This document shows, piece by piece, positions 2,638 through 62,880 of a DNA stretch of 64,000 nucleotides. The DNA comes from a virus. The notes below the pieces were generated by a model that saw nothing but the letters and a program-made list of their open reading frames with translations, was not told where the DNA came from and searched no databases. The stretch lies in IMG/VR virus record IMGVR_UViG_3300034200_001185, positions 62,001 to 126,000 of that record, one strand, 5' to 3'. Made by a program: the position numbers and the translations under genes. Within the stretch, counting starts at the first letter, position 1. The number at the start of each line of letters is the position of its first letter.

Positions 2638-2660
2638 AGGAAACCTCCATTGGTTATTGG

Positions 2661-2676: not shown

Positions 2677-2684
2677 CGAAATAT

Positions 2685-2696: not shown

Positions 2697-2728
2697 TGGC
2701 TATGTTTTCTGTCGCTTTTCTCTACTAT

Positions 2729-2738: not shown

Positions 2739-2777
2739 CATTATCCGTATTTTTGCACACCCCCTCGCTAATACCAA

Positions 2778-3185: not shown

Positions 3186-3186
3186 G

Positions 3187-48890: not shown

Positions 48891-48902
48891 AATATAGGCT
48901 AA

Positions 48903-48914
48903 AGCGTATCCGCT
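48903..48914 (-). repeat. CG-hairpin element, convergent-junction copy
   Basis: AGCG and CGCT pair around loop GATA (leftward strand). Outer GGCT/AGCC (48897-48922) can extend the structure. Confidence 0.6.
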
Positions 48915-48918
48915 AGAA

Positions 48919-48932
48919 AGCCCCTCAGGGCT
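48919..48932. terminator. Bidirectional terminator-like hairpin
   Basis: AGCCC and GGGCT form a 5-bp stem with a 4-base loop between convergent operons, overlapping the leftward stop codon. The following T-tracts are weak (TTTC on the left side). Confidence 0.5.
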
Positions 48933-49410
48933 ATTCGGTATCGACTAATTTATCGATAAAGTTTGTGCACAGCGAGAATAAGTTATCGTGAGATTCGGAT
49001 TCAAGTTCGTATTCTAGTTCATTAATTAGAATGTCGAATTGATAACATAATTCCTTAAGATCATCGATAGCCTTCGGTGTTCGATCGGTGGTACGATCTG
49101 TTACCAATTCGTCCAGCTCCTTGAAATCCTTCTTATCGATTTCGTACAAACCAATTCCGTGACCAACGTATGAGCAATAAATTAAGAAGGACAAGTACTG
49201 ATCATTATCGATTGCGTGTGATGCTTTTTCATCAGAATCGTATGTTAAATCGAGATGCTTTAAGCCATCTTCCTTTAGTAGCTGTTCTACTCTCCCAGAG
49301 AACGCTTTTTGAGCGTCTATGAGAGTTGATGTAGCAGTATCGCTTAATTCTAAGGACATTGGTGCGAGTAAGAATAGGATCCACCTATCTTTTGGTACTG
49401 AGAATGCCAT
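48931..49410 (-). CDS. Acidic hypothetical protein, last gene of the leftward block
   Basis: The protein has 159 residues. A hydrophobic start (DRWILFLLAPMSLELS) is followed by an acidic helical body (KDFKELDELVTDRTTDRTPK, then LINELEYELESES). No family is recognised. It follows the MGLD-type gene by 18 bases with an AAAGGAAACG ribosome site. It may be a small host-interacting protein. Confidence 0.55.
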   Translation of the reverse strand: MAFSVPKDRWILFLLAPMSLELSDTATSTLIDAQKAFSGRVEQLLKEDGLKHLDLTYDSDEKASHAIDNDQYLSFLIYCSYVGHGIGLYEIDKKDFKELDELVTDRTTDRTPKAIDDLKELCYQFDILINELEYELESESHDNLFSLCTNFIDKLVDTE

Positions 49411-49428
49411 AAACGTTTCCTTTCGGTA

Positions 49429-49863
49429 TTAATACCAAGCACGTAGTTCTAATGTTTCGTCGTCAACATCTTCTGCGTAATACTTGAAGAATGTCAAGAA
49501 CGTTAGTAGATCTTCCTTAGTGTATTCGTAGTGAAGCGGTTCCAGAAATTTACGAATATCTTCGTCATGTTCTCCGCTCTTTGCCAAATCGTAACGACTC
49601 TTCATGCTTTCCCAAGCACTACGAATTTCGTCTTTAGTCCTATCCGCGTAAAGCCAACCAGATTTATCCAGTAAAGCGTCTACCATAGGTCCGTAAAACT
49701 TACCACGAAATGCTGAGCTTGTTCCGTCGTCATTCTCGTTTACGCAAGAAAACATACCGATACACAAACTACCAGGTAATTCTTCACCTTTGTAGTTACA
49801 AGCAATTAGTTCATCAGTACCGTTCTTATCGGCGTGTACCATAAAAAAGTTATCTAATCCCAT
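49429..49863 (-). CDS. MGLDxF-type phage hypothetical protein
   Basis: The 144-residue protein starts MGLDNFFMVHADKNG, an opening seen in many small phage proteins of unknown role. The middle (CIGMFSCVNENDDGTSSAFR, then YGPMVDALLDKSGWLY) looks globular; the C-terminus is acidic. Its 49-base leader has a CG-hairpin element and AAGGA. Confidence 0.6.
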   Translation of the reverse strand: MGLDNFFMVHADKNGTDELIACNYKGEELPGSLCIGMFSCVNENDDGTSSAFRGKFYGPMVDALLDKSGWLYADRTKDEIRSAWESMKSRYDLAKSGEHDEDIRKFLEPLHYEYTKEDLLTFLTFFKYYAEDVDDETLELRAWY

Positions 49864-49888
49864 GATATAATCCTTCGTTTAAAGTATG

Positions 49889-49898
49889 GCGTATCCGC
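49889..49898 (-). repeat. CG-hairpin element, leader copy
   Basis: GCG and CGC pair around loop GATA about 25 bases upstream of the MGLDxF gene start; a G-T pair can extend it. Confidence 0.5.
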
Positions 49899-49912
49899 TC
49901 ACAATTTACTGA

Positions 49913-50746
49913 TTAAGAGTTTGCCCAGCTGTCAGCGAATGGTGCTGATTCCAAAATACCCTTCGCAATCAATTCGATCTCAAGCGCCTCTGTGCCGAGT
50001 CTGAACTTCTCAACCGATTGAATGAGTGTGTCTAGCTTATCTGCTAGATCGTTCAAACGTTGTTCTGTGCTTGCGTTTGACTTTGCAACCTTTGCTTGAA
50101 AGTCTGCGTCAATACGCTGTGCTTGATCAAGCGATGCATTGATGTACTTTAGATCCGATGAAACACCTTGATCGATAGCGCTTACTCGATTTAGAATTTC
50201 CGAATTACTTGCAAGTAACTTAGAGAAATTATGCGAGATAGATACTAGCGCTCCGTTCAAAGCCTCGACTTGAACATTGATGTCGGTAGTATGTACTTGC
50301 TGCGAAACAGTTTCTACGACATGTTCTACAACAGGTACTTGTTCTACTTCTTGTACAACGACTGCTGGCTCTTGTGCGAGAGGTAGGCTTGATCGTCTGC
50401 GTCTCGCAGGCTTTTCTACTTGAGGCACTTCTACCGCTGCTGGCTCAAATGGTAGATCGGCTGGCGCTTGCTCTTCGGCTACTGCTACGCTTTGTTGCTC
50501 TTGCTGGACAATCGGAGAGTTGTTTCGAATTGCTACTGACGCAAGTGCGTCAATAAAAACATTCTTGCGGTTTGCGGGTGTTACGCGTGAGCATTGACGA
50601 GCAAGCTCGGTTGTATCGCATAAGTCTTTGCATGCAAGCATGAGGTGGGTGATTGCGACATCGCTACGTGATGCGAGTTCACGAGTGAGTGATTCGTTGC
50701 CAGATGCAACTGCGTCTAGGATTGCGATTACTTGTGGTGTAGACAT
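49913..50746 (-). CDS. Coiled-coil protein with basic patch
   Basis: The protein has 277 residues. A helical head (residues 1-75) is followed by a Glu/Val/Gln/Pro-rich linker holding a basic patch ARRRRSS near residue 115, then a coiled-coil tail of about 110 residues. G+C is higher than in neighbouring genes. AAGGAG precedes the ATG, and the gene has its own leftward promoter and a hairpin in the leader, so it can be expressed independently of the replication operon. It could be a DNA- or RNA-binding scaffold; no family is recognised. Confidence 0.6.
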   Translation of the reverse strand: MSTPQVIAILDAVASGNESLTRELASRSDVAITHLMLACKDLCDTTELARQCSRVTPANRKNVFIDALASVAIRNNSPIVQQEQQSVAVAEEQAPADLPFEPAAVEVPQVEKPARRRRSSLPLAQEPAVVVQEVEQVPVVEHVVETVSQQVHTTDINVQVEALNGALVSISHNFSKLLASNSEILNRVSAIDQGVSSDLKYINASLDQAQRIDADFQAKVAKSNASTEQRLNDLADKLDTLIQSVEKFRLGTEALEIELIAKGILESAPFADSWANS

Positions 50747-50771
50747 GATGGTCTCCTTGTTTTTGTGTTTG

Positions 50772-50783
50772 TACGTATCCGTA
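50772..50783 (-). repeat. CG-hairpin element, leader copy
   Basis: TACG and CGTA pair around loop GATA in the leader of the coiled-coil gene, 25 bases before its ATG. Confidence 0.6.
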
Positions 50784-50808
50784 AGCTATTGGGTATTACC
50801 CGTATACT

Positions 50809-50819
50809 GTTATCACTTT
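50809..50819 (-). promoter_or_regulatory. Leftward promoter, AAAGTGATAAC type
   Basis: The leftward strand reads AAAGTGATAAC, matching the other leftward promoters except for a missing GT. It is followed by GGGTAATACCC, a small hairpin at the expected RNA start. Confidence 0.5.
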
Positions 50820-50835
50820 ATGCGATACTCTTTTG

Positions 50836-51138
50836 CTACCCTTCAATCGCTTTACGATTGGTTTTGTAGCATATGGTTGCTTGAGCGTCTGTGCATACAT
50901 TATCCCTGCTTGCACAATCACCTTTACACGAAAGTATCTCTTGAAGGACTTGCCAATTCGCTTGAACGTATTTCTGAGTAGATGTTCGTATCTTCTCTTG
51001 GTTTGTAGAAACACTTGAGGGCGATATAAGCATTTCATCAATTTGCGAAATAGTTGCATGACGTGGAGCGAATTGCCCTGTCTCTTGTTTCAGAAACTGA
51101 CGAGCTTCTGTAATATTTACTAGGTATGCGCTAAGCAT
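50836..51138 (-). CDS. Small hypothetical protein with C-terminal cysteines
   Basis: The 100-residue helical protein starts MLSAYLVNITEARQFLKQET. GAGG lies 5 bases before the ATG, which abuts the RusA stop. Four cysteines cluster near the end (SCKGDCASRDNVCTDAQATI and a final C), perhaps a metal site. It may partner the resolvase. Function unknown. Confidence 0.5.
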   Translation of the reverse strand: MLSAYLVNITEARQFLKQETGQFAPRHATISQIDEMLISPSSVSTNQEKIRTSTQKYVQANWQVLQEILSCKGDCASRDNVCTDAQATICYKTNRKAIEG

Positions 51139-51591
51139 TTATACCTCGCAGTTATATATACGAATATTGACGTATTCATCTTTATCCGTTTCATTCTTGG
51201 TAAGTAATATGTTCATAAACTGAGAATCGTCTATGCCTAAGCTCTCACTTACGCCATCTTCTAGCACCTTAACGCGATTGCTAATATCAATCTTACGAAA
51301 CCGAGTAGCCGACTTTTTCTTTAGCCACGATTTAGTTTCTACGTTGTTAAAGTAGAAATCGTAGCTGATTGCGAGTCTTACATTTTCTAGCGAAACGGTA
51401 GCAAGCTCTCTACACTTTGTTGCGACTAGGCCATGTATCATATCCTTGTACTGACGACCTTCAGATGAAAGTGTTCTTCGTCCTTTATTCGTAAAGTACA
51501 ACGAGTTTACGCTCGGTGGCATGGGTATATTTTCAATCGTTGTTATCAGTGAGCCAAGGGCGTGGTTTACGCTTGTTTGTTCTGGATTCAT
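51139..51591 (-). CDS. RusA-family Holliday junction resolvase
   Basis: The 150-residue protein contains PMPPSVNSLYFTN and the RusA signature RKIDISNRVKVLEDGVSESL, then GIDDSQ. The signature's acidic residues (D-x-x-N ... E-D-G ... D-D) coordinate magnesium for cutting four-way junctions. RusA enzymes resolve recombination and replication branches before packaging. The start at 51591 has GGA 8 bases upstream; a GTG at 51603 is an alternative. It overlaps the upstream gene by about 59 bases. Confidence 0.8.
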   Translation of the reverse strand: MNPEQTSVNHALGSLITTIENIPMPPSVNSLYFTNKGRRTLSSEGRQYKDMIHGLVATKCRELATVSLENVRLAISYDFYFNNVETKSWLKKKSATRFRKIDISNRVKVLEDGVSESLGIDDSQFMNILLTKNETDKDEYVNIRIYNCEV

Positions 51592-52102
51592 CTGTTGTTC
51601 CACTCTTTACGCTATTTAGCCGAATGTTCTGTTCTTGATCTTGACCACGTAATGTAACAATACGAGAGATGACTTTGTAGTTTTGCGCACACATTGTCTC
51701 TGCCGATTCTAAGTACGATTTCATGGCTGACCACCATAACACATTATAATTAGCAATCAAATAGTCATCATCAAACTCTACGCAATCTTTTCCCTTCGAT
51801 TTGATAATCGATTGCTTGATTGCGCTAAGTGCGTCCTCTCTACATCTTAATTGGACAACAGCATCGCTTAATGCACCGTTTATATACCGAGTCCAACTGA
51901 TATGAGCAGACATTAGTTCGGCTAATTCTGACGTATCAAGTTCGTCTAGGTTTTTAGGCGGAACACCGCAATACTTATCACCGCGAAAATGCGGTTTATC
52001 TTCTTCTGACATATCGAGTTGTATGCCCATCTTTGCTAATTCGAGTTTAACCTCTTCAGGTACGGATAAGTAGGTATCGTTAATCTTCTTAACGTTAGTC
52101 AC
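51533..52102 (-). CDS. Hypothetical protein of the recombination module
   Basis: The 189-residue helical protein has a central amphipathic region (LAELMSAHISWTRYINGALS, then QLRCREDALSAIKQSIIKSK) and a basic Lys/Arg/Pro tail (TNKRKPRPWLTDNND). The layout suggests a nucleic-acid-binding accessory factor. It overlaps the Cas4-like nuclease gene by 8 bases and the RusA gene by about 59. Confidence 0.5.
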   Translation of the reverse strand: MTNVKKINDTYLSVPEEVKLELAKMGIQLDMSEEDKPHFRGDKYCGVPPKNLDELDTSELAELMSAHISWTRYINGALSDAVVQLRCREDALSAIKQSIIKSKGKDCVEFDDDYLIANYNVLWWSAMKSYLESAETMCAQNYKVISRIVTLRGQDQEQNIRLNSVKSGTTDESRTNKRKPRPWLTDNND

Positions 52103-52832
52103 CTTCTACCTCTGGCTTACATATATAATAATACTGACATGACTCGCATGACCATGAATTAGGCTCACGTGCAATCTCTTCGCCCTTAGAACAAGTAAAC
52201 ATAGCATCGAATAGCATGTTGGAAATTTCATCTTGTCTCTTTGCGTCTGCTTCTACGAGAAAGCGTTTATGCACGTCCTTGTCCTTATTGAAATAATCAA
52301 ACAATATCCACTTAGCGTTAAAGCAAGCTGCATAACAATTCGCTTGAATTTCATGCTTAGCAATTGGACTGCGCAGTGAATTCCAAGTTGCAGATGACGC
52401 AGTCTTTAACTCGTAGACAATACAATCACCTTGCTTGATATCGTCATTGATATCACGCGTAGCGGTAATGAGCGCATCCGCACTACCTGCTAGGTTATGA
52501 TCGTGTGCAAAAACAGTATCATTGATACTCTTTTCGATTTCTAGCGTAAATGGCATATCAGGTGTATCAAACACATTACGTAATTTAGATTGTACCCAAT
52601 CGTGTACCACGTGTCCGTGGTCAAATGTTCTACGTAGCCTTGGCGAAATATTGTGCTTAGGTGGCGTCTTATTAAACGCGTAATACAATTTTCTTCCACA
52701 ATCGCCAAGTGAGGATGGGTGGAATTTACCGTCGATATCCCTCGCGGATACCTTCTCGTTTTTCTTCTTGTCTAGCTCGTCAAATAGAATGTCGAGATCG
52801 AGGACGTTAAGTACTGATCTAATCGAAGACAT
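52095..52832 (-). CDS. Cas4/RecB-like PD-(D/E)XK nuclease with iron-sulfur cluster
   Basis: The 245-residue protein has the nuclease core GSADALI (Asp118), then VYELKTASS (Glu140, Lys142) and a KHEIQANCYA helix. It also has the four-cysteine cluster of Cas4 and AddB: C45 in GDCGRKLYY, then C229-x2-C232-x5-C238. Such enzymes resect DNA ends to make 3' single strands for recombination. Position beside RusA and DNA polymerase suggests phage recombination-dependent replication rather than CRISPR adaptation; no Cas1/Cas2 is near. Confidence 0.85.
   Translation of the reverse strand: MSSIRSVLNVLDLDILFDELDKKKNEKVSARDIDGKFHPSSLGDCGRKLYYAFNKTPPKHNISPRLRRTFDHGHVVHDWVQSKLRNVFDTPDMPFTLEIEKSINDTVFAHDHNLAGSADALITATRDINDDIKQGDCIVYELKTASSATWNSLRSPIAKHEIQANCYAACFNAKWILFDYFNKDKDVHKRFLVEADAKRQDEISNMLFDAMFTCSKGEEIAREPNSWSCESCQYYYICKPEVEGD
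52606..52621 (-). repeat. CG-hairpin element, coding copy (long stem)
   Basis: ACCACG and CGTGGT form a 6-bp stem around loop GACA (leftward strand) within the Cas4-like gene. A 3-bp relative (GCG/CGC, loop GATG) lies at 52472-52481. Confidence 0.55.
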
Positions 52833-52833
52833 G

Positions 52834-53046
52834 TTATCTCTTTACTCGAAACGGATCTTGTTTTCCGTTTGCAATCTTAGTTAGTGATTCGAATGGTGCT
52901 GTGCCATGAATAGGACATCGTGGTAAGCTACCAGCTATATCGAGTGCGGATCCGCACAATGGACATCCGTTAGATGCTCTCTTTTCCATCTTGTCGTGAG
53001 GAAAGCCTAATACTGCGTTCTTTTCCATCATAATTGCTACCGCCAT
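52834..53046 (-). CDS. Small zinc-ribbon-like protein
   Basis: The protein has up to 70 residues. CPLCGSALDI and RCPIHGTAP give a C-x2-C ... C-x2-H zinc knuckle. The frame opens at 53046, but ATGs at 53034 and 52989 are also possible; the last would reduce overlap with the HU-like gene from 77 to 20 bases. It lies 1 base upstream of the nuclease gene. It may be a nucleic-acid-binding cofactor of the replication genes. Confidence 0.55.
   Translation of the reverse strand: MAVAIMMEKNAVLGFPHDKMEKRASNGCPLCGSALDIAGSLPRCPIHGTAPFESLTKIANGKQDPFRVKR
52944..52957 (-). repeat. CG-hairpin element, coding copy
   Basis: GTGCG and CGCAC surround GATC, giving a perfect 14-base palindrome within the zinc-ribbon gene. 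Confidence 0.55.
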
Positions 53047-53203
53047 CTGCTTTTAAAGCGTTGCATAGTTCGTCAGAGGGGACGAAATTTACTGTCGTCT
53101 TACCTCTACTATACCCCAAACCGCTCCTTAAAACAAATAAAGTACCAACGCCAGGAATGACAAGTTTGCCGTCGCGTAATAAGCTCTTGAGTGCAAAATG
53201 CAT
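52970..53203 (-). CDS. HU-like minimal DNA-binding domain
   Basis: The 77-residue protein starts MHFALKSLLRDGKLVIPGVG. GGAGG sits 7 bases upstream and the ATG shares a base with the polymerase stop (TAATG). LVIPGVGTLFVLRSG, then TTVNFVPSDELCNAL, follows the strand pattern of HU/IHF after helix 2 (V-x-L-x-G-x-G-x-F ... F-x-x-x-x-x-L). The usual first 25-30 residues are missing, so it would be a truncated or divergent HU fold. Coupled expression with polymerase suggests a replication accessory role. Confidence 0.5.
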   Translation of the reverse strand: MHFALKSLLRDGKLVIPGVGTLFVLRSGLGYSRGKTTVNFVPSDELCNALKADGGSNYDGKERSIRLSSRQDGKESI

Positions 53204-55236
53204 TATTTCGCCTCCGCCCAATTCGGTGCGAACCCGCCTTCCGCTGTTAGCGGAACTAATAGGTCCAATCCCGGATTTTCCATTTTCTTCATTACAAGCT
53301 GATTGATCTTGCATAGTATCTCCTCGTTGTTAGGCGCTTCTACGATTAATTCGTCGTGTACTTGGAGAAGCATTCTAACCCCAAGTTCCCCGCCTTCTAA
53401 ACAATCTCCGCCTAGAAGTGGATCACGATCTATCGCAAGCATGGCCATCTTTGTTATATCTGCCGCGCTACCTTGAATAGGCGCATTAATTGAGTCACGT
53501 TCTGCCTTAGCACGAATACCTTGATTACTAGACGTGATTTGAGTCAAGCGTCTGTACCTACCGGTAAGCGTTCTTACGCAGTGCTGCGGATCCGCAACTA
53601 AATCGTATTGTACCTTGTCAATATACTTACGTACGTTTGGAAATGTATTAAACCACTCGCTAATCTTTTTCTTCGCTTCCGAGATTGTGATACCGAGAGT
53701 TTCCGATAAGGCTTTAGGGCCTTGACCGTACATAATACCAAAACCAATCGCTTTTGACGCATCACGTGCATCGAGTAAGCTTTGCATACGTTTTCTATCT
53801 ACATTAAGATCTTCGACAATAGCTAGCGCATGTTCTTTGTCAATGTTGACTTTCTTTGCGAGTTTCGTAGCTGCGCCTTCTATTTCTCCGACATCGGATA
53901 ATATCTTTGCGCCCATAGCCTCTTCGTAGCTAACACCTTGCATCTTTGATGCCGTAAAACAGTGCAAATCAAGTCCGTCAGATATTGCACCGCACATATG
54001 CTTATCACGACTCATGTGAGCCATAACACGCATTTCAATTTGACCGTAGTCCCATACGCCAAGCGCATAACCTTCGCTACACATAAACGCCTTACGAATT
54101 TCCTTACCCGCATCCCCCTTACGAGGTATGTTTTGTAGGTTAGGATTTTGCGATGATAGTCGTCCTGTAACAGTACCTGTCTGTTGGAGCGTACAATGTA
54201 TTCTGCTATCTTCGCCAATATGCTCTTGTAAACCTTCGAGATAAGTACCAACGAGTTTATCTAGCTTACGATACTCTGCGAGAAGTACGGCAGCTTCAAT
54301 ACCACGCTTTGCAAGTATTTCTAGTGTTTCAATGTCGGTAGAAGGCTTAGAGCTATCAGTGTATGCCACGGGCTCAAGTCCCATACCGCCTTCACTTTGA
54401 GGGCCGAAGAAGAAGTGTTGTAACTGCTTTACGGATCGAATATTGATTGGATACCCTGCGATTTGCTTAATCTTTCGATCTAGCTCTCGCATACGTACTT
54501 CCATAGGACCTTTCATATCAAGTAGATGCTGTGTATTGATACAAAATCCCCTACGTTCCATTCGCCACAAACATTTAGTAAACGGCATTTCAATCTTCGT
54601 AAAGTACCCAAACAGATTCTCAGTTACTCCGTATTCGGACGTATCTAGCTTTTTCATCTCTTCCGCATGCACCTCGCTTAAGTGCCAAGTGGCATAAGCG
54701 TCAAGTGTAGCGTAGCGAGCAACTAGATCGAGAGGGGCATTGATTAGACGATGAATAACTTCGCTTTCACTACGTACATTAAATACTTCGCTAAATGGTT
54801 TCATCGGTATTCCTAGAAAGTCACGTGCTTGAGATTTTAAGTCAAGCTCACCACGAATTTTTCTATTCTCGTCAATCATAAACCCCATAACTAGCGTATC
54901 CGCTACTCTACCGCGCATTTCAGGTACTGCGACGTTAGCTAACATATGCATATCGTATTTAGCGTTATGCATTACCCACACTCGATCCGAATCCGTATAC
55001 AAGTTGTGGAAGGATGGCGACATAATCAACTCTAAAGAAAACAACCAGCGTTCTTGTCCATCAGACATTGACCAGAATAACGGAATGTCATTACTGATCG
55101 ATAAGCCGGTTGTTTCCGTATCAAGTGCGAGTCGTGTCCGCCAACCACATTCCCTAGACGCAAGTTCGTTCATTAGCTGATCGAACTCACACGGATCCGT
55201 GACTATAATGGGAGGGGGAAGGGAAACGAATTGCAT
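53203..55236 (-). CDS. polA: Family A DNA polymerase with proofreading exonuclease
   Basis: This 677-residue protein is the phage replicative polymerase. The exonuclease motifs are LALDTETTGL (Asp39, Glu41), NAKYDMHML (Asp95) and RYATLDAYA (Tyr175, Asp179). The polymerase motifs are A, WDYGQIEMRVMAH (Asp395); B, DASKAIGFGIMYGQG (Lys494, Phe498, Tyr502); and C, LLQVHDELIVEA (His626-Glu628). The residue equivalent to E. coli F762 is Phe. About 50 extra residues lie between motifs A and B. No 5' nuclease domain is present. AGGAG lies 8 bases before the ATG. Three CG-hairpin elements fall inside the gene. Confidence 0.95.
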   Translation of the reverse strand: MQFVSLPPPIIVTDPCEFDQLMNELASRECGWRTRLALDTETTGLSISNDIPLFWSMSDGQERWLFSLELIMSPSFHNLYTDSDRVWVMHNAKYDMHMLANVAVPEMRGRVADTLVMGFMIDENRKIRGELDLKSQARDFLGIPMKPFSEVFNVRSESEVIHRLINAPLDLVARYATLDAYATWHLSEVHAEEMKKLDTSEYGVTENLFGYFTKIEMPFTKCLWRMERRGFCINTQHLLDMKGPMEVRMRELDRKIKQIAGYPINIRSVKQLQHFFFGPQSEGGMGLEPVAYTDSSKPSTDIETLEILAKRGIEAAVLLAEYRKLDKLVGTYLEGLQEHIGEDSRIHCTLQQTGTVTGRLSSQNPNLQNIPRKGDAGKEIRKAFMCSEGYALGVWDYGQIEMRVMAHMSRDKHMCGAISDGLDLHCFTASKMQGVSYEEAMGAKILSDVGEIEGAATKLAKKVNIDKEHALAIVEDLNVDRKRMQSLLDARDASKAIGFGIMYGQGPKALSETLGITISEAKKKISEWFNTFPNVRKYIDKVQYDLVADPQHCVRTLTGRYRRLTQITSSNQGIRAKAERDSINAPIQGSAADITKMAMLAIDRDPLLGGDCLEGGELGVRMLLQVHDELIVEAPNNEEILCKINQLVMKKMENPGLDLLVPLTAEGGFAPNWAEAK
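53585..53596 (-). repeat. CG-hairpin element, coding copy
   Basis: TGCG and CGCA around GATC in the polymerase gene. Confidence 0.55.
54892..54905 (-). repeat. CG-hairpin element, coding copy
   Basis: TAGCG and CGCTA around loop GATA in the polymerase gene. Confidence 0.6.
55190..55201 (-). repeat. CG-hairpin element, coding copy
   Basis: CACG and CGTG around GATC near the 5' end of the polymerase gene. Confidence 0.55.
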
Positions 55237-55240
55237 TTAG

Positions 55241-56302
55241 TTATCTCCTAGGTGGAGGTGCGATTGTTGTTCTTGTGTTTGCTAAACCAATCATCTTTTG
55301 GTGGAACGCTGGGTTTCGTTCTACCTTGAACAATTCGTGGAAATTTAGCGGAGTATACAAGGATGAGATGGATTCGTGGAACTGTGTTCCGTCAAACAGT
55401 GGTACTTGACCACCTTCGAATGGAATTTGTACATGGTCGATAAATGTAATATCGGCTCCGTGAGGCACAACGATTGAGGTATCTGTATCCTTACCGCGCT
55501 TTGCAAGTGGAATAACCACATCGAAAATCTCGGCTGGACGTGGATCTTGACATCTTTCACATTCGTATTCGATGTGTAGTAAACCTCTATGACCGCATTT
55601 ACATGCGTAAACTTCGCCTGCAAGCTGTTCAAGCTCTTTCTTAGTCTTGTCGGTTGTTTCCATATCTTCGATTGTGCGATTACATGCTTCGCATACATAC
55701 TTGCTTGGCGTAAGCTTAGCTGCGCGTTTATCCTTTTCGATACACATCGCACAGGTTTGACCGATTTGTTTTGCTAGATCGATCAATTGACCTGCGTGAC
55801 CTGGACCAAGTTCGAGATACCCAACTCTACCAAACACACGCTTGACGCCTTGTTCATCCCATTGTCTTCGCTGAGATGGTGTTTCAGGCTGACGATAGAT
55901 TTCGTCATTATAGTCGTTGGTGTGTAGATAGAACCAATCGAGAGCAATCACGGTGAAATAGCGCATGCGTCTTGTTGAAAAGCGCTTGTCTTCCTTATCG
56001 TATTGCAACTCACAGCTTGGGCAATGAATGGATCGATCCTTACCTTTTGCGCATAAGAACGAACGAATAAATGGCTTACCGTTCACTGTGTCCTTGAATG
56101 TATGGCGTGGCCATTCGAAGTAAGGTAACTTGATGCTTGGATCCGCATAGGAAGGATATGCACCTTCTACGAATAAAAGTGGCGTAGCCGCCTCTTCGAG
56201 TTTAATCTGCTTGAGATAACTACCGTTGTAACCAATGCCATCGCTTTCTGGCTTCTTGGCAGTTTCGTTTAACGCTTGAGATGTTCTAAACCATTGACTC
56301 AT
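55241..56302 (-). CDS. Zinc-rich protein, ssDNA-binding protein candidate
   Basis: The protein has 353 residues with cysteine pairs CPSC, CAMC, CEAC, CKCG and CERC, enough for at least two zinc ribbons. Strand-rich segments with aromatics (RMRYFTVIALDWFYLHTNDY) resemble an OB-type binding face. A basic Pro/Arg tail ends PPPRR rather than the acidic tail usual for ssDNA-binding proteins. It lies between primase and polymerase, where phages such as T4 (gp32, a zinc protein) need an ssDNA-binding protein and none else is seen here. Function is inferred from context and composition. Confidence 0.5.
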   Translation of the reverse strand: MSQWFRTSQALNETAKKPESDGIGYNGSYLKQIKLEEAATPLLFVEGAYPSYADPSIKLPYFEWPRHTFKDTVNGKPFIRSFLCAKGKDRSIHCPSCELQYDKEDKRFSTRRMRYFTVIALDWFYLHTNDYNDEIYRQPETPSQRRQWDEQGVKRVFGRVGYLELGPGHAGQLIDLAKQIGQTCAMCIEKDKRAAKLTPSKYVCEACNRTIEDMETTDKTKKELEQLAGEVYACKCGHRGLLHIEYECERCQDPRPAEIFDVVIPLAKRGKDTDTSIVVPHGADITFIDHVQIPFEGGQVPLFDGTQFHESISSLYTPLNFHELFKVERNPAFHQKMIGLANTRTTIAPPPRR

Positions 56303-57215
56303 GGTGATCTCGCTTTCTTCTCCACTGTAGTAGTGGTAATGCTGACTTTAGTGAGCTTTCTAGCTCGTCTTTCGTAAGTTCGTCAGGTTGACGTGTTGAA
56401 TAATCAACTAGCCACGTATCCGTGCCATGTTTACTTAGTATTATCGCAATATTCTCTTGACCTTTTCGACCCGCCTCATCGTTGTCTAACATGAGATATA
56501 CAGGACGTCCGTCCGATACAATCATGTCTCTCTGAGCGTCCGAGATCATTTTTCCGAGGAGTGCTACCGTACCAAGTTCACCTAGCTCGACTAGTTTTAA
56601 ACACGCCTTAAACCCCTCAACGACAATTAATCTTTCAACCGACTTAGGGACGCGGTGGTAACGCCATAAGTAGTCGTGAGAACGAGGATTGTATCCCGCT
56701 GGGCAATAGTCCATAAGCTCTCGCTTATAAACACGGTATCTTGGACCAGTTGAGTTACCAATCGATCTACCATATACCGCAACGAGTTCTCCGTTCTCAT
56801 TTCGAATAGGTATTGTGACACACTGATTAAAGGTGTCAAATCCTATTTCGTGGTCTTGTAACACGTCTGGATCAAGTCCACCTTCGATCCATGGTGTAGG
56901 CTCATAATCCCACGCATACAAAACACTCTCATCAAGTATTTGTTCTTGTTGCTTAGGTGTTTTTGTATACATGTCACGCTTTGACTCTGCAATCAAGGCA
57001 ACGATCTCTTGGGGAGCGCGTTTCCATTTAAGAGCAGTTTCAAGCGTACCTTTAGCGCCACATGAAAAACAAATAAATACCTTCTTATCAAGGTTAAGAT
57101 GACATGAAGGCGATTTATCTTGATGATCAGGCGATGGGCATTTAATGAATACGTTATTATTTGTACTCGGCTTTACTTCACCGAAATACTCCGCTATCAG
57201 TTCTCTGATGTCCAC
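56286..57215 (-). CDS. DNA primase with CHC2 zinc finger and Toprim domain
   Basis: The 309-residue protein has an N-terminal zinc finger (C26, H31, C49, C52 in IKCPSPDHQDKSPSC and FICFSCGAKG). A Toprim fold follows, with IVVEGFKACLKL (catalytic Glu near residue 200) and LMLDNDEAG (metal-binding Asp pair). It makes RNA primers for lagging-strand synthesis. It overlaps the helicase gene by 19 bases, and the two proteins probably work together as in T4 gp61/gp41 or T7 gp4. At 309 residues it is shorter than bacterial DnaG, and no separate helicase-interaction domain is seen. Confidence 0.9.
   Translation of the reverse strand: MDIRELIAEYFGEVKPSTNNNVFIKCPSPDHQDKSPSCHLNLDKKVFICFSCGAKGTLETALKWKRAPQEIVALIAESKRDMYTKTPKQQEQILDESVLYAWDYEPTPWIEGGLDPDVLQDHEIGFDTFNQCVTIPIRNENGELVAVYGRSIGNSTGPRYRVYKRELMDYCPAGYNPRSHDYLWRYHRVPKSVERLIVVEGFKACLKLVELGELGTVALLGKMISDAQRDMIVSDGRPVYLMLDNDEAGRKGQENIAIILSKHGTDTWLVDYSTRQPDELTKDELESSLKSALPLLQWRRKRDHHESMV
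56413..56424 (-). repeat. CG-hairpin element, coding copy
   Basis: CACG and CGTG around loop GATA in the primase gene. Confidence 0.6.
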
Positions 57216-58621
57216 AACTCACCTTCCGGCTCACGAGTTCTAAATTTACGTGGTTGATCTTCTCGTTTATCGCTCTTTTGGGGAGCATCAAGCGATTGAA
57301 GATGTTCTACTTGATCTTGCGTAAGGTTTACTTGATGTAGCGAAAAGTCTACAACGGGTACAAAGTTCACAGTAAAGCTTTCGATCTTTGACTCACGCAT
57401 AGCAGGTAGCGTAATTAAAATCTTTTCGCCTTCACGTGTTGGTATCTTTTGCACACGAATAACAGCATCAGCGTCTTGAATAGCAGACAAGCCGAAACCC
57501 ACATCGTTATAAGATCCCATATCTTCGCCAGCCTTACGCTTTGCACCTTCGCGGTTTGATTGAGTTGTACCGATTACAGGTATATTATACTCAGACGCAA
57601 GTCCTTTTACGTCTTGCGTAATATTTGTAATTGTTTTCCAACTTACATCGCGAGATTTAGTACGATCGTCTGACATAAGGTACACACCGTCAATAAACAA
57701 TATATCGGGTTGAAATGCATCTATCTCGGCACGAATGGCGTTTACGCCTCCACCAAATCTAGCGGAAGGCTTTACACACCGAATGTTGCGATAGTTTGAT
57801 GACTCAATTGTACTCTTTGCAGCTTCCATCTGTTCGTATTGTAAGCTGTTAAGCTCTTCGAACATTCTACCACGTTGCTCTTCGTCAAGCGTGGCTCTAA
57901 CTACGGATCCGTAGTCCATTCGGCACAGTCTAGCTAATATACGTCTATATATTTGATCTACAGGCATTTCGTTGGATACTACTAAACAACGAGCATTACC
58001 ACGTTCAAAAGGACATATCGCACCAACTTCTAATCCCATCCACGTTTTACCGCCCTTTGATGGGCCGTAGATCATTGAAAAGGTACCGCCCGACATACCA
58101 CCGGTACCCTCGTTTAGCGGATCCCAAGGATAAGGCATACCTAGCAAACCGCCACCACGATTAATTGTTTCGTAGTGTTCTCTAAATCGAGGAATAGCGT
58201 CTGCTAAATCAAGTCTCGATGAGTCAGGCATTGTTCCCTTGTTAAGAGTACGAGTAATTGCATTGAGATGTTCAAGCGCAGCTTCTGGTCCATAAGAACG
58301 TAAAAGCTCATCCAAGTCGATGATAGTTGTGCGAAGTGTTCTGCTAAGATATTCGTCCTTTAATTCGGACACAATCTCGTCAACCGACTCTTCGACTACC
58401 TCAGGTATCTCAAGTCCGGGTACCTTCTTGATCAATTTTCTAGCCGAAGGCACATTACCAATACTTCCGGGTTTAGCCGAATGGTCGATAATTGTTCTCC
58501 AAGCTAAAGCGCTCTTTACGTCTGTAAAGTAGTCGGATCCGACTCCTAGTGTTTGTGCGTGTCTTGCTGATCCATCTTGTAAGATACGACCGATCAATCT
58601 ACGCTCAAGTTCCCTACTCAT
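57197..58621 (-). CDS. DnaB-like replicative helicase
   Basis: The protein has 474 residues. The RecA-like core has Walker A GPSKGGKT (residues 186-193) and Walker B DILFIDGVYL (Asp311). The Gln-containing strand is VIGTTQSNREG, and an arginine-finger region lies near DADAVIRVQK. The N-terminal 130 residues form a helical domain as in DnaB. It unwinds DNA at the fork as a hexamer, powered by ATP. ATGA coupling links it to the gene before, and it overlaps the primase gene. Confidence 0.9.
   Translation of the reverse strand: MSRELERRLIGRILQDGSARHAQTLGVGSDYFTDVKSALAWRTIIDHSAKPGSIGNVPSARKLIKKVPGLEIPEVVEESVDEIVSELKDEYLSRTLRTTIIDLDELLRSYGPEAALEHLNAITRTLNKGTMPDSSRLDLADAIPRFREHYETINRGGGLLGMPYPWDPLNEGTGGMSGGTFSMIYGPSKGGKTWMGLEVGAICPFERGNARCLVVSNEMPVDQIYRRILARLCRMDYGSVVRATLDEEQRGRMFEELNSLQYEQMEAAKSTIESSNYRNIRCVKPSARFGGGVNAIRAEIDAFQPDILFIDGVYLMSDDRTKSRDVSWKTITNITQDVKGLASEYNIPVIGTTQSNREGAKRKAGEDMGSYNDVGFGLSAIQDADAVIRVQKIPTREGEKILITLPAMRESKIESFTVNFVPVVDFSLHQVNLTQDQVEHLQSLDAPQKSDKREDQPRKFRTREPEGELWTSEN
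57900..57915 (-). repeat. CG-hairpin element, coding copy (long stem)
   Basis: ACTACG and CGTAGT around GATC, a perfect 16-base palindrome in the helicase gene. Confidence 0.6.
58531..58544 (-). repeat. CG-hairpin element, coding copy
   Basis: AGTCG and CGACT around GATC near the start of the helicase gene. Confidence 0.55.
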
Positions 58622-58842
58622 GACTGAGGCCTTTCGCTCAAGTATTCTAGGATCGTCTTTTCGAGTAAATCTCGATAAGATTTAATGTGTTTTGTTTTCT
58701 CACCAACGAGTGGTAAATCAAAACTAAGGTTTGTGCGAATGTCCTTAATAGTAAGAACGCAATCAATTACCAACATATCGTTGAAAAATTTTATACCAAC
58801 GACTGCAAGCTTTGCACCATGCAATTCGTAGAAGTTCTTCAT
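58618..58842 (-). CDS. Small hypothetical protein
   Basis: The 74-residue protein starts MKNFYELHGAKLAVVGIKFF at 58842, where ATGA overlaps the stop upstream. The longer open frame to 59064 overlaps a better-supported gene and is rejected. It has an alternating strand/helix pattern. It lies directly before the helicase gene, with ATGA coupling, and may be a helicase-loading or accessory factor. Confidence 0.5.
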   Translation of the reverse strand: MKNFYELHGAKLAVVGIKFFNDMLVIDCVLTIKDIRTNLSFDLPLVGEKTKHIKSYRDLLEKTILEYLSERPQS

Positions 58843-59162
58843 CGCAAACTCTTTGCAGCTTCCATTGATATACGTAATTCTTCGGGCACTACGATTTGTA
58901 GTGTTTCGAAGGCTTTCTTCACAGACGCCTCGTCTTGATTTACGGTAAGAGTTACAGTGATTGCGACGGATACGCCGTTTCCATAATTCTTCTCGCTGTT
59001 TTCCATAGTCATAGAAATCTTCGCAAGTGCATTTCCAATAATTTCGTCCATGATAATCTCCCAAGGTATATCGATGTTCTTTTGATATACGGTCTTTTGT
59101 TTAGGTGTTTCGACTGTTATGTTTGCAATCGCACGAATAGTATTTACCTTTTTGTCGGACAT
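58839..59162 (-). CDS. Hypothetical protein, first gene after the hairpin leader
   Basis: The 107-residue protein starts MSDKKVNTIRAIANITVETP at 59162, with GGAG 6 bases upstream. It is a beta-rich protein (VSVAITVTLTVNQDE) with a helical C-terminus. A CG-hairpin element lies just upstream of its ribosome site. Function unknown; it belongs to the replication operon. Confidence 0.55.
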   Translation of the reverse strand: MSDKKVNTIRAIANITVETPKQKTVYQKNIDIPWEIIMDEIIGNALAKISMTMENSEKNYGNGVSVAITVTLTVNQDEASVKKAFETLQIVVPEELRISMEAAKSLR

Positions 59163-59179
59163 AAAAATCTCCACTATCG

Positions 59180-59191
59180 GGCGTATTCGCC
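59180..59191 (-). repeat. CG-hairpin element, leader copy
   Basis: GGCG and CGCC around loop AATA in the 64-base gap before the gene starting at 59162. Confidence 0.6.
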
Positions 59192-59226
59192 TTTCATGAT
59201 GTTATCCCAAGTTACTCTGCGTAATT

Positions 59227-59721
59227 TCAATCTTCGCTTTCGGTTGTATTTGACTCCTTGACAATACAACTCACGCCCACAACTCGTTCCAAAGTTTTCC
59301 AAACCTTTTTCTGCTCTTTGTCTAGCTTAGCCGTATCGATCGTAATCTTTACTGGAGGCGGATTAAGTCCGGACTCTTGAAAGATAGAATGGATTTCGGT
59401 AACAGAGTAAGGCACCTCGCGAGATAGACGTGGAATTGCGTAAAACTGAGGCACAGTGCTGTACGATCTTGGCATGTCTTCTCGATTTGCAAGCTTCTCT
59501 TGAAACAAGGATTGCGCTTCCTGCCTAAAGCGAGTTTTCTCTCGCTCAATTTCTGCTTGCAACTGATCTCGCTTATCTACTAGCGATGCCTTAATGTCTG
59601 CAAAACGTTGCAAGCTAGCGTCCCAATATTCCTCAGGAAGAAACTCACGAAGTATTCCGCCATGCTCAACGAGTTCTTCAAGCTTTTCAACTTCCTTATA
59701 TAAATCTTCGATAATGCTCAT
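59227..59721 (-). CDS. Coiled-coil hypothetical protein
   Basis: The protein has 164 residues. A long charged coiled coil (residues 1-90, DKRDQLQAEIEREKTRFRQE) is followed by a Pro-rich hinge and a small C-terminal domain (PPVKITIDTAKLDKEQKKVW). AAGG lies 5 bases before the ATG, which abuts the upstream stop. Scaffold or oligomerisation factor in the replication module; no family is recognised. Confidence 0.55.
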   Translation of the reverse strand: MSIIEDLYKEVEKLEELVEHGGILREFLPEEYWDASLQRFADIKASLVDKRDQLQAEIEREKTRFRQEAQSLFQEKLANREDMPRSYSTVPQFYAIPRLSREVPYSVTEIHSIFQESGLNPPPVKITIDTAKLDKEQKKVWKTLERVVGVSCIVKESNTTESED

Positions 59722-60390
59722 TTAAACCTTCTCGCTTAATAGTGAATCTGCTATACCCCACGCTGTTTCAAACGCTTGACAAATCTGCGAAATGACACCG
59801 TTTGAGTCATCATAATCGCCAATTCTCTCTGCGTAATCGCTAGCATGTGTATAGATTGTTGGGTAACGTACAGCCGTAAGTACTCCAGGTACTTCGACTG
59901 AGAATAGCGTATCCGCTGTTCCTACTTTTTGTGGTAATTTACTTGTACGCTTACAAAGCGATACTGCTCCCGCATGACCAAGTATTAAGATCACAAGTGG
60001 ATCAACTTGATAAATGACTTGATACAAACGATCTCTACACGCTTTAATTTCTAGTGTTTTAGGATCACGGTTATTTCCAGCATTCGCACCAGCGGTAATA
60101 ATACCGCGACAACTGACTGCCGATGTAACAAACGCTTCTTCCATAAAAACTTGCCTTGCCTCTTGACGAGTAAACCTACCGCGCTTAGATAACACAACAT
60201 CTTCAAATATTCTAACGACAAAATTCATGTCGTCTGTCATAAATGTTCCGTGTTTATCTTCAAGCTGTGTTGGCATTTCGCGAATAATTAGGACTTTAGG
60301 TCTAACGGGTCCGTTACCAATTAAAACGTTTTTCCTTGTCTTACAAAGATCGCATTGTACGCAATGATTGTACTCAGGAAGAGAAATCAT
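59722..60390 (-). CDS. Uracil-DNA glycosylase superfamily protein with Fe-S cysteines
   Basis: The 222-residue protein resembles family 4/5 uracil-DNA glycosylases. Cys10, Cys13, Cys16, Cys94 and Cys118 can supply the four iron-sulfur ligands. KVLIIREMPTQLEDKHGTFM corresponds to the catalytic motif GEAPGxxE, and ILGHAGAVSL to the later glycine-rich helix. The catalytic motif is degenerate (REMPTQLED), so base excision may be altered or lost. It could repair uracil, act as a processivity or binding factor, or have another DNA role. Confidence 0.7.
   Translation of the reverse strand: MISLPEYNHCVQCDLCKTRKNVLIGNGPVRPKVLIIREMPTQLEDKHGTFMTDDMNFVVRIFEDVVLSKRGRFTRQEARQVFMEEAFVTSAVSCRGIITAGANAGNNRDPKTLEIKACRDRLYQVIYQVDPLVILILGHAGAVSLCKRTSKLPQKVGTADTLFSVEVPGVLTAVRYPTIYTHASDYAERIGDYDDSNGVISQICQAFETAWGIADSLLSEKV
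59906..59917 (-). repeat. CG-hairpin element, coding copy
   Basis: AGCG and CGCT around loop GATA in the glycosylase-like gene. Confidence 0.6.
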
Positions 60391-60656
60391 TCTTCGCCCT
60401 CAGATTCGTCTTTAAACATATCCAAGTTTTCTACGTTATTGTCTTCGCAGTACATTCGTAGCTTTGCGCTTAGTGTGTATATATCGTACTTGATTGTGCT
60501 TGCAGTCATATACAAGGTAGTTACCGCTTCAGAGGACTCGTCAAATTCTTGACAGGCGGAACACAAGTAATCAGCTTGACGCCAAGTTTCGTCAAGTAAT
60601 TCCTCGATATCGGCTACGATGTCCTTTAGTGTTCTTTTGTTTTGTTCTTCTGACAT
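60387..60656 (-). CDS. Small acidic helical protein
   Basis: The 89-residue protein starts MSEEQNKRTLKDIVADIEEL and is mostly helical with two cysteines in YLCSACQEF. It ends in an acidic tail (KDESEGEE). It has ATGA coupling to the glycosylase-like gene and a 5-base gap after the SF2 helicase. No family is recognised. Confidence 0.55.
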   Translation of the reverse strand: MSEEQNKRTLKDIVADIEELLDETWRQADYLCSACQEFDESSEAVTTLYMTASTIKYDIYTLSAKLRMYCEDNNVENLDMFKDESEGEE

Positions 60657-60661
60657 ATTTC

Positions 60662-61966
60662 CTACTTTCTGTCATTATACTCGTATCCCCATTCCGCTAA
60701 TCTTTTCTTACACTGACGCATAAGAGCGCCACACATATGAATACTCGTATCCGAGATAAAGATTGCGATAGGGTTTAACTTGTGTTGGTGTTTACGTTGG
60801 ATTCTTCCAAGTGCTTGTTGAAGTATATTACCGTGTGTCTTTGCACCAAACGGTGTCATGATGATTAAACACGATAGCTCTGGTACGTTAAGCGCTTCTG
60901 CAGCAACATCTAACGTAGCAAAGCTAACCGGATTATTCGCAATATTATCACGCCGAAGTTCCGCATCTACATCACCGCAGGCAATACCGCTTTCTGGGTA
61001 TAAAGTGCTCATATGCTTTACATGTTCCACACTATGCGTAAGGCATAATACCTTATGACCATTGCTTACATAACGATCTATTTCTTTTTGAATAAGATTG
61101 TTTCTATTCGTTAGCGTACCAAGCCATGCGCATAACTTTCTGTGATGTATTTCGCCTGATCTATCCTTAGCATCATCCGTTACGTCATCTTCCGTCAGTC
61201 CTGTGTCAATAAAATAAATACTTGGTATTAACTCTTGAGACGTATTGCTAAAGTGTACAGGCCCTATATGATACTCGAAAGCTCTCTCGTATCCATCTTC
61301 TCTCTTAGGTGTAGCAGATAATCCGTGTCTTTTACCGTAGAACATTGGACATACTTTGTGAAACATTGGTGCGGATAGGTGATGACACTCATCGAATACA
61401 ATTACGCCAAATGATTTAGCAAAGTCTTGTGGTAGCGTATCCGCTTTACTACTAAGTGTGTTTATTGATGCGAGCACAATAAACTTATCTTCGTATTCCC
61501 ACTTTTTACCTTGTACGATACCGATCTTACTTTCTGGTATATCTAAGTGCGTTTTAATCTCATCAATCCACTGCGAGATTAGATTAACTCGATTAACAAT
61601 TACGATTGCTTTCTCCTGTTCGAGTGCAATGTAGTTAAGCGCAACAACTGTCTTACCATGACCACAACCTAAGTTTAAAATACCGTGACCATGACTAACC
61701 ATAGACAAAAGAGCGTCTTGCTGTTGTGGACGTAATTTAGTCTTAGATACAATCGGTAGCTTTTCCCAAGTAGGACGAATATCCTCAAATGGTTCTATGG
61801 GATCCATGAAATGAAGCGGAACTTTAACGTGATTGCCTACCAATTCTGCGTCTGACGGTAAGTCTCCGACCATAAGCGAGTACTTAAGTACTTTAAAGTT
61901 TACCTTTTCCTTTGGTAAGTATAGGTAGTTTGATAAGTACGATACTCCGTCTTTAAACTCAGTCAT
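60662..61966 (-). CDS. SF2 DNA/RNA helicase (UvsW/DECH-type)
   Basis: The 434-residue protein has LRPQQQDAL (Q-like entry), Walker A GCGHGKT (Lys105) and motif II FDECHHL. Motif III is LSATPKRED and motif VI QQALGRIQRK. This is the order of Rad25/UvsW-type helicases that remodel forks, R-loops and recombination intermediates. In T4, UvsW switches origin-dependent to recombination-dependent replication, and the nearby RusA and nuclease genes fit such a role. It has ATGA coupling to the HTH gene. Two CG-hairpin elements lie inside. Confidence 0.88.
   Translation of the reverse strand: MTEFKDGVSYLSNYLYLPKEKVNFKVLKYSLMVGDLPSDAELVGNHVKVPLHFMDPIEPFEDIRPTWEKLPIVSKTKLRPQQQDALLSMVSHGHGILNLGCGHGKTVVALNYIALEQEKAIVIVNRVNLISQWIDEIKTHLDIPESKIGIVQGKKWEYEDKFIVLASINTLSSKADTLPQDFAKSFGVIVFDECHHLSAPMFHKVCPMFYGKRHGLSATPKREDGYERAFEYHIGPVHFSNTSQELIPSIYFIDTGLTEDDVTDDAKDRSGEIHHRKLCAWLGTLTNRNNLIQKEIDRYVSNGHKVLCLTHSVEHVKHMSTLYPESGIACGDVDAELRRDNIANNPVSFATLDVAAEALNVPELSCLIIMTPFGAKTHGNILQQALGRIQRKHQHKLNPIAIFISDTSIHMCGALMRQCKKRLAEWGYEYNDRK
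60744..60755 (-). repeat. CG-hairpin element, coding copy
   Basis: CTCG and CGAG around loop GATA in the SF2 helicase gene. Confidence 0.6.
61434..61445 (-). repeat. CG-hairpin element, coding copy
   Basis: AGCG and CGCT around loop GATA in the SF2 helicase gene. Confidence 0.6.
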
Positions 61967-62352
61967 TTAATTACGTCTCGAAGTTTCTTCTTTAGATCGG
62001 CTAAACTCTTAAACGATTCATCTTCAAGCGAATTGATTAAGCTAGTAAGTTTAGATGAGTCAATTACGATTAGCTTTTCGTCATAACCTTCGTTATCAAC
62101 GAGTGCTCTGGCACATAAACGCTCTAACTCGAACTGTTCTGCGTCGGATAAGCTGTATATTGTAGCTAAGTAAGCTCTGCTTTGCTTATTTGGAATACGT
62201 TCTCCTACTTCAAATAATCGAAAGCTCTCGGACGTGATATTGATACCACGTGTTTTAGCAAAGGCTGCTACGTCAACTAGTGTTTGGAACTTTAAGCGTA
62301 TTCGCTTAGTCTTAATGAACTCTGCGAGTTCTTGCATCTTTTTACTCTTCAT
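61963..62352 (-). CDS. XRE-like helix-turn-helix protein
   Basis: The protein has 129 residues. The N-terminal 75 fit a Cro/C1-type HTH: MQELAEFIKTKRIRLKFQTL, then VAAFAKTRGINITSESFRLF and EVGERIPNKQSRAYLATIYS. The C-terminal part is an acidic then basic helical segment. It is the second gene of the large replication operon and may regulate it or the late switch. It overlaps the upstream gene by 11 bases and the helicase gene by ATGA. Confidence 0.65.
   Translation of the reverse strand: MKSKKMQELAEFIKTKRIRLKFQTLVDVAAFAKTRGINITSESFRLFEVGERIPNKQSRAYLATIYSLSDAEQFELERLCARALVDNEGYDEKLIVIDSSKLTSLINSLEDESFKSLADLKKKLRDVIK
62293..62308 (-). repeat. CG-hairpin element, coding copy (long stem)
   Basis: TAAGCG and CGCTTA around loop AATA near the start of the HTH gene. 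Confidence 0.6.
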
Positions 62353-62776
62353 CGGACATTACCTTATGTCGATAGTTTTCTCTTGACGCTACGATGAGCG
62401 AATGTATACGCTCTGTAGTCACTTGTGCTATATCATGAACAAGATACGTTGTAAACTGTCCAAATATAGGTTTGTTGAAATTAAAGTCAACGTCTGCTGC
62501 GCGTATGACACCTCCACGCTGTGCTGCCACTGGTACTGCAGCGGTTGTTGCAGGTCTTACGGGTACTCCTGTTGATACGTAGTTACTAGCCGGCGTTGTT
62601 GGCGATGCTGCTCTTGGTCTTGTATAATAGCTCACGTTATTTCTCGCTTTCTCGTCTATGGCTTTACTGCATTCGTGTCTAAATCCGCATCCGGAACACG
62701 CAGAACTACTTTCATTAAACTCAGAGTCATTCGCAAAGCAATCTGGCTTGTCGGATGATTTAGTGTAATAGCTCAT
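62342..62776 (-). CDS. First gene of the replication operon, cysteine-cluster protein
   Basis: The 144-residue protein has an N-terminal cysteine cluster (C13, then CSGCGFRHEC near residues 27-36), which could bind zinc or an iron-sulfur cluster. A Pro/Thr/Ala-rich linker and a C-terminal helical domain follow (YLVHDIAQVTTERIHSLIVA). The phrase SYYT occurs twice, before and after the cluster. GGAGG lies 11 bases before the ATG, behind the leftward promoter at 62810. As the first leftward gene it may act early; function unknown. Confidence 0.55.
   Translation of the reverse strand: MSYYTKSSDKPDCFANDSEFNESSSACSGCGFRHECSKAIDEKARNNVSYYTRPRAASPTTPASNYVSTGVPVRPATTAAVPVAAQRGGVIRAADVDFNFNKPIFGQFTTYLVHDIAQVTTERIHSLIVASRENYRHKVMSDEE
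62684..62695 (-). repeat. CG-hairpin element, coding copy
   Basis: TCCG and CGGA around loop GATG (mRNA strand) in the first gene of the operon. Confidence 0.5.
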
Positions 62777-62809
62777 TTATTGGCTACCTCCTTTGTTTGT
62801 CTGTATGCT

Positions 62810-62820
62810 ATTATCACAGA
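62810..62820 (-). promoter_or_regulatory. Leftward promoter of the replication operon, TGTGATAAT type
   Basis: The leftward strand reads TCTGTGATAAT, matching the other four leftward boxes. The surrounding TTATC/GATAA dyad (62811-62823) could also bind a regulator. It lies about 35 bases before the first gene. Confidence 0.6.
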
Positions 62821-62880
62821 TAATTGACTATTAAATTGATCCTACTTATTGTATAAGTTACGTATTACAAGGAGCTTATT

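Follow-up and report, generated by a model that had tools for sequence, protein, structure and literature searches.

Along the leftward replication transcripts of a tailed phage, a small hairpin with a constant core is repeated many times. The DNA analysed (the window) is a stretch of 64,000 nucleotides, bases 62001-126000 of the 133,533-bp IMG/VR phage record IMGVR_UViG_3300034200_001185; genome coordinates are window positions plus 62000, and the leftward replication block of about 14 kb lies at window 48.9-62.8 kb (genome 110.9-124.8 kb). Gene content, together with promoter-like sites, was the basis for inferring what is 'early' and what is 'late'. The element, a self-contained hairpin with a stem of 4-5 bp, has invariant inner pairs C-G and G-C and a tetraloop R-A-Y-N, GAUA being the commonest; the first two outer pairs must pair, with any base pair allowed, and a fifth pair is partly required. 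Its copies are oriented with transcription and restricted to certain gene blocks, their outer stems covary, and the element recurs, with turnover of sites, in a related contig. We propose, at a probability of roughly 0.35 for the full chain, that the hairpin acts as RNA and that a dedicated factor binding it determines what becomes of early mRNA.

A CG-RAYN-CG core was counted as paired when at least two further outer pairs were complementary (Watson-Crick). The replication block has 23 cores on its sense strand, of which 18 were paired, versus a mean of 0.24 hairpins and a maximum of 2 in 300 dinucleotide shuffles of the block; a preliminary description of the window had estimated less than one per block. 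The coding parts of the block hold 14 hairpins versus 0.61 in codon-preserving shuffles (maximum 5, 500 shuffles), and the sense strand of rightward late genes has no paired core, either among 8 in 42.7 kb or among 5 in another 33 kb. The preliminary description had likewise seen no fully paired copy in rightward genes, and had held that an equal density there, or in codon-shuffled sequence, would speak against the element; neither was found. An unbiased scan of every inner dinucleotide pair, with loop lengths from 3 to 9 nt, singled out one class alone, CG around a 4-nt loop: 22 of 50 were paired where 3.2 would be expected (p = 9e-14; runner-up 0.002). Among cores with a RAYN loop, further pairing was present in 35 of 45 with CG/CG inner pairs and in 0-2 for each of the 14 other inner pairs observed. 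Hairpins in the replication block are spaced by 766 nt on average, close to the 0.8 kb first proposed and more evenly than random (coefficient of variation 0.54 vs 0.93, P = 0.005). CG-containing codons (GCG, ACG) do supply many cores; however, shuffles that keep codons and protein, or dinucleotides, yield 20-70 times fewer hairpins, and with these two controls an origin by chance, codon usage or base composition was rejected as exceedingly improbable. Three 4-bp copies antisense to late genes (genome 17247, 20286 and 25727, minus strand), slightly more than chance, were also observed; these may reflect antisense transcripts or coincidence.

All 17 hairpins first listed for the window were found in place with the right loops and stems, the stem at 49889 having just 3 bp and the loop at 62684 being GATG. 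Further sense-strand copies were detected at 60303, 54628, 55563, 52472, 12315, 12039 and 2685. The copies and associated sites are as follows (window coordinates, minus strand).
62810-62818 (-): promoter-like TGTGATAAT upstream of the replication operon, where the hairpin-bearing transcript is inferred to start
62684-62695 (-): hairpin TC-CG-GATG-CG-GA, 4 bp, first gene of the leftward replication operon
62293-62308 (-): hairpin TAAG-CG-AATA-CG-CTTA, 6 bp
61434-61445 (-): hairpin AG-CG-GATA-CG-CT, 4 bp, helicase gene
60744-60755 (-): hairpin CT-CG-GATA-CG-AG, 4 bp, helicase gene
60303-60316 (-): hairpin TAA-CG-GACC-CG-TTA, 5 bp, newly found
59906-59917 (-): hairpin AG-CG-GATA-CG-CT, UDG-like gene; homologous position in the relative AAAGCGGATTCGCTTT, 6 bp
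59180-59191 (-): leader hairpin GG-CG-AATA-CG-CC, core to ATG 19 nt, open reading frame (ORF) of 107 aa
58531-58544 (-): hairpin AGT-CG-GATC-CG-ACT, 5 bp, DnaB-like helicase gene
57900-57915 (-): hairpin ACTA-CG-GATC-CG-TAGT, 6 bp, DnaB-like helicase gene
56413-56424 (-): hairpin CA-CG-GATA-CG-TG, primase gene, same place in the relative
55563-55572 (-): weak copy T-CG-AATA-CG-A, 3 bp, newly found
55190-55201 (-): hairpin CA-CG-GATC-CG-TG, start of polA
54892-54905 (-): hairpin TAG-CG-GATA-CG-CTA, polA, same place in the relative
54628-54639 (-): hairpin TC-CG-AATA-CG-GA, 4 bp, polA, newly found
53585-53596 (-): hairpin TG-CG-GATC-CG-CA, polA
52944-52957 (-): hairpin GTG-CG-GATC-CG-CAC, intergenic
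52606-52621 (-): hairpin ACCA-CG-GACA-CG-TGGT, 6 bp, PD-(D/E)XK-like gene
52472-52481 (-): weak copy G-CG-GATG-CG-C, 3 bp, newly found
50772-50783 (-): leader hairpin TA-CG-GATA-CG-TA, core to ATG 27 nt, 277-aa gene, Shine-Dalgarno (SD) site AAGGAG
49889-49898 (-): leader hairpin G-CG-GATA-CG-C, 3 bp, core to ATG 26 nt, 144-aa gene
48913-48935: AGCCC-TGAG-GGGCT-TTCT, terminator-like, closing the leftward operon, the CG hairpin following directly on the leftward strand
48903-48914 (-): hairpin AG-CG-GATA-CG-CT, shortly beyond the last leftward gene and the terminator-like hairpin
12315-12326 (-): hairpin TG-CG-AATA-CG-CA, lone leftward gene with a TGTGATAA promoter-like site
12039-12052 (-): hairpin AAG-CG-AATA-CG-CTT, same lone gene as the 12315 copy
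2685-2696 (-): leader hairpin TG-CG-GATA-CG-CA, 43 nt after a TGTGATAAT site

Assigning the element to the replication transcripts, as was first done, was right for that block and too narrow for the genome. Of the 12 cores in a second leftward early block, which lies outside the window at genome 45-57 kb, 9 are paired (unbiased scan, p = 1e-5), and lone early-looking genes within late blocks carry copies too (e.g. window 11940-12401). Most copies of the second block are located in leaders, 22-30 nt from core to ATG and mostly just before SD sites; of 13 leader copies examined genome-wide, 12 have the core 9-18 nt from the SD and the remaining one has it 38 nt away. Since a plus-strand leader copy at genome 37816 precedes the plus-strand gene at 37852, the element follows the gene and not the strand, and another plus-strand copy, at genome 38680, also matches its gene in orientation. 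The TGTGATAA promoter-like sites, which resemble host-type extended -10 promoters, comprise the window 62810-62818 (-) site and 12 more genome-wide, standing before leftward or early-looking units; at 7 of the 13, a paired hairpin follows downstream within 350 nt, versus 0.9 expected. Three near-identical leader cassettes at genome 50419, 51810 and 52467 (minus strand) were also recorded, in which the CG hairpin is followed by AATCG-(A-rich SD loop)-CGATT-ATG; the loop of this second hairpin could hold the SD site.

Paired loops were GATA (16), AATA (6), GATC (6), GATG (2) and AATT (2), with others once each. Covariation was analysed in 45 sense-strand cores chosen blind to pairing from both blocks and the relative. 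Watson-Crick counts, which overstate independent events because some cores are related copies (the leader cassettes and the three shared positions), were 40, 39, 23 and 10 at outer pairs 1 to 4, versus shuffled means of 14.7, 14.1, 12.0 and 10.7. Covariation is strong at outer pairs 1-2, weaker at pair 3 and absent at pair 4. All four Watson-Crick pair types are present at each of outer pairs 1 and 2, and the covariation score of an independent pair counter was 0.482 vs 0.139 when shuffled, slid registers reaching at most 0.156. At 26 non-leader sites no conserved sequence was found beyond the core and its pairing, and the hairpin is thus self-contained. The in-context stem probability was 0.86, compared with 0.59 when these cores were placed in random flanks; longer stems contribute to the difference. 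The first account of a dispersed R-A-Y-N-loop hairpin, oriented with transcription and covarying, was borne out by these data. It had also taken the covariation to argue for RNA or cruciform structure, of which a hairpin in one strand stands; folding in context does not set the sense strand apart from the antisense strand, nor can covariation alone tell an RNA hairpin from a DNA hairpin.

The sole close relative in the collections searched is a 20-kb contig with a 64% identical PolA and the replication genes in the same order. In this contig 8 of 10 cores were paired, all in the sense orientation, with loops GATA (5), GATT, GATG and GATC, and its coding sequence contains 7 hairpins versus 0.16 in codon shuffles. 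Three sites occupy homologous positions in the two phages (PolA, primase and UDG-like) and keep pairing in all three, the loop at the UDG-like site changing from GATA to GATT with a longer stem; other sites occur in one phage only, often where the protein sequence differs as well. Loss of pairing at homologous positions, which had been named as a possible objection, was therefore not seen at the three conserved sites, while most others had turned over whole. Whole-site turnover together with three kept places looks like selection for many hairpins and not for exact positions, as expected of many redundant sites acting additively. Searches by primase, helicase, RNA polymerase, ribonucleotide reductase and a 353-aa protein returned nothing close except the 20-kb contig. 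About 85 distant PolA loci had 9% of cores paired, near chance, and no class of comparable strength. The element was not found in Vibrio phage D181 or in the part of Salmonella phage Arash that was scanned; GG around a 7-nt loop, the local class that scored highest there, falls at tRNA clusters. Among the matches listed by a leader-motif pattern scan of IMG/VR, those fetched look like chance.

The phage gene set includes a family A DNA polymerase (PolA), a DnaB-like helicase, a DnaG-like primase, a UDG-like protein, a ResIII helicase, a class II ribonucleotide reductase and a tail-sheath protein. This 133-kb tailed phage also encodes a cellular-type RNA polymerase in a single ORF with beta C-terminal and beta-prime domains:
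Genome 38-3877, in a rightward block, outside the window: RNA polymerase ORF, 1279 aa
By this polymerase the nearest named relatives are Vibrio phages D181, D148 and D69 and Salmonella phage Arash, at only about 30% identity. A first guess of a crAss-like phage, made from giant ORFs, was dropped when PolA, the DnaB-like helicase, the tail sheath and the beta/beta-prime RNA polymerase were found. Within the replication block, a 129-aa protein (window 61966-62352, minus strand) has by eye the look of an XRE-type helix-turn-helix regulator and is conserved in the relative at 40%. A 353-aa Cys-rich protein between primase and PolA (window 55244-56302, minus strand) is 61% identical in the relative; neither the named phage collection nor Pfam gave a match to it. 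For a conserved 144-aa Cys-rich protein the structure prediction was unusable (mean predicted local distance difference test, pLDDT, 44).

Orientation, restriction to early-looking blocks, 5' first copies, repetition, redundancy and turnover all fit a factor-binding element that is read many times per transcript. The early and replication transcripts of this phage clade carry the hairpin and late transcripts are without it, the first copy standing near the 5' end, often right before an SD site, and later ones following about every 0.8 kb in genes and gaps. The hairpin would fold in nascent early mRNA, and one RNA-binding factor, probably encoded by the phage, would bind it through its loop and inner pairs. 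The many copies per message would act jointly and set the fate of early mRNA as a class, by protection or by timed processing or turnover at the early-to-late switch. We consider RNA the probable acting molecule and a dedicated binding factor nearly as probable, whereas mRNA fate as the output is a tentative suggestion. A phage-wide early-transcript code, with dozens of interchangeable hairpins in leaders and coding genes and one dedicated reader, either an RNA-binding protein or the multi-subunit-type RNA polymerase, is somewhat more doubtful.

Several observations weigh against this proposal. The phage proteins scanned included no recognisable RNA-binding protein, RNase or antiterminator, and the binding factor is hypothetical for this reason. 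In-context folding of sense versus antisense strands was not decisive (0.86 vs 0.78, p = 0.16), and G-U wobbles are few and no clearer than A-C; as the wobbles are uninformative and both strands fold about equally, RNA is not proven over a DNA hairpin. In two leaders (genome 53028 and 51082, minus strand) the hairpin overlaps the start of transcription expected from TGTGATAAT: with a canonical start 7 nt after GATAAT, the outer 5' arm would be untranscribed and the RNA copy truncated. One copy sits past the operon-end terminator, and just one close relative was available for comparison.

The hairpin might instead be a DNA promoter, recognised in extruded or single-stranded form by the phage RNA polymerase as by the N4 virion RNA polymerase, which we regard as unlikely. 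T7 class II promoters are spread through genes, and the distribution of the hairpins is likened to them under this explanation. The multi-subunit-type RNA polymerase from the rightward block could be packaged and act early, leader copies at 22-30 nt (core to ATG) leave enough space for a short leader, and where the predicted host start overlaps the hairpin, at genome 53028 and 51082, the DNA hairpin would be complete and the RNA hairpin would not. Promoters of the N4 virion RNA polymerase are short hairpins with a conserved loop and inner stem and outer bases that are free if paired (PMC4496689), and the phage element, also a hairpin in early genes conserved inside and with a free but paired outer stem, follows that pattern. 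However, N4 has a 3-nt loop and a handful of sites upstream of early genes, which suffice there, whereas the present loop is a 4-nt RAYN, 4 nt being the only enriched loop size, in dozens of copies, many of them in genes. The N4 polymerase is moreover single-subunit and T7-like, whereas scans of part of the ORFs gave the beta/beta-prime-domain, multi-subunit-type polymerase instead. In-gene copies every 0.8 kb, with no start-site signature downstream, and one copy past the operon end make little sense as promoters, and several units are already preceded by host-like TGTGATAAT sites. Processive antitermination, in which the nascent hairpin would recruit an elongation factor that reloads at each copy along the long early operons, is about equally unlikely in our view. 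Small hairpins confined to the sense strand, first copies close to promoters and a long operon agree with it. The lambda nut/boxB hairpin also lies on the sense strand close to early promoters, but its pentaloop is GNRA-like and each operon has one site; the RAYN tetraloop here recurs at many sites, also inside genes. No conserved flank was found at non-leader copies that would suggest a lambda-type boxA/N arrangement, and no antiterminator family was recognised (small N-like peptides would escape). The LoaP dfn element provides a precedent, a small leader RNA hairpin being able to recruit an antiterminator, a NusG paralogue (PMC12691694); dfn, however, has a UNCG-type loop and occurs once per leader, and the present loop is neither GNRA-like nor UNCG. 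NusG-family proteins (PF02357) were absent from the phage at E <= 1; a host factor may fill this role. Known systems have 1-2 sites per operon, in untranslated leaders, and a terminator scan gave one terminator-like site on the leftward strand over the 14-kb block. The nut-like role first suggested may hold, but it has no NusG-family factor, and the leftward strand offers hardly any intrinsic terminators for it to overcome.

The RfaH ops element is a sense-strand (non-template) hairpin acting in transcription, and its tetraloop G-G-T-A (PMC5995543) resembles the G-A-T-A found here. Its stem, however, is a single base pair in a 10-11-nt bubble, for which the present 4-6 bp with covariation (4 bp supported) are too long, and an RfaH/ops reading was dropped because of stem length and because no NusG homologue was found. 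An effect on translation, whereby the hairpin upstream of the SD site, alone or protein-bound, raises or represses initiation, agrees with the 12 of 13 leader copies at 9-18 nt from the SD, a placement kept even at large gaps; it is nevertheless improbable, because most replication-block copies lie far inside genes, where initiation control cannot act. Least probable of the functional explanations, at long odds, is a single-strand DNA replication signal, for instance for lagging-strand priming or protein loading: the one-strand bias and the even spacing near 0.8 kb would suit it, but the hairpin is absent from the sense strand of 75 kb of rightward genes and its orientation tracks the gene, including the plus-strand copies at genome 37816 and 38680.

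Two other kinds of dispersed element were compared. Dispersed stem-loops with a short loop motif and variable stems act together in the packaging of RNA phages; these act on RNA genomes, whereas the present phage is a tailed DNA phage. T4 RegB sites are restricted to early mRNA, intergenic near SD sites and sometimes in genes, and RegB cleaves GGAG/GGAU when these are unpaired, secondary structure being inhibitory (PMC3014915). In contrast, the hairpin itself is conserved here, the first G of GGA is paired, and AATA loops have no GGA. Rfam covariance models gave no match up to E = 1 in window 48500-63500 and no such element was found in the open-licence papers searched, which agrees with the earlier remark that no element of this form is described. 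As each kind compared fails at least one tested defining feature, the hairpin was filed under no known kind; judged by sequence, it appears to belong among protein-recognised hairpins, with an unusual distribution that is dispersed, early-only and in-gene.

According to the searches made, dispersed and redundant hairpins within coding sequence that are limited to one gene class have not been described for tailed phages. The 8-nt core with a 4-bp stem is a ready affinity bait for finding the factor. We know of no DNA-hairpin promoters for the multi-subunit-type RNA polymerase family, and initiation by such a polymerase at DNA hairpins would, if true, be a new promoter type for that family. The hairpins would also give a handle on early/late separation in a phage with its own multi-subunit-type RNA polymerase.

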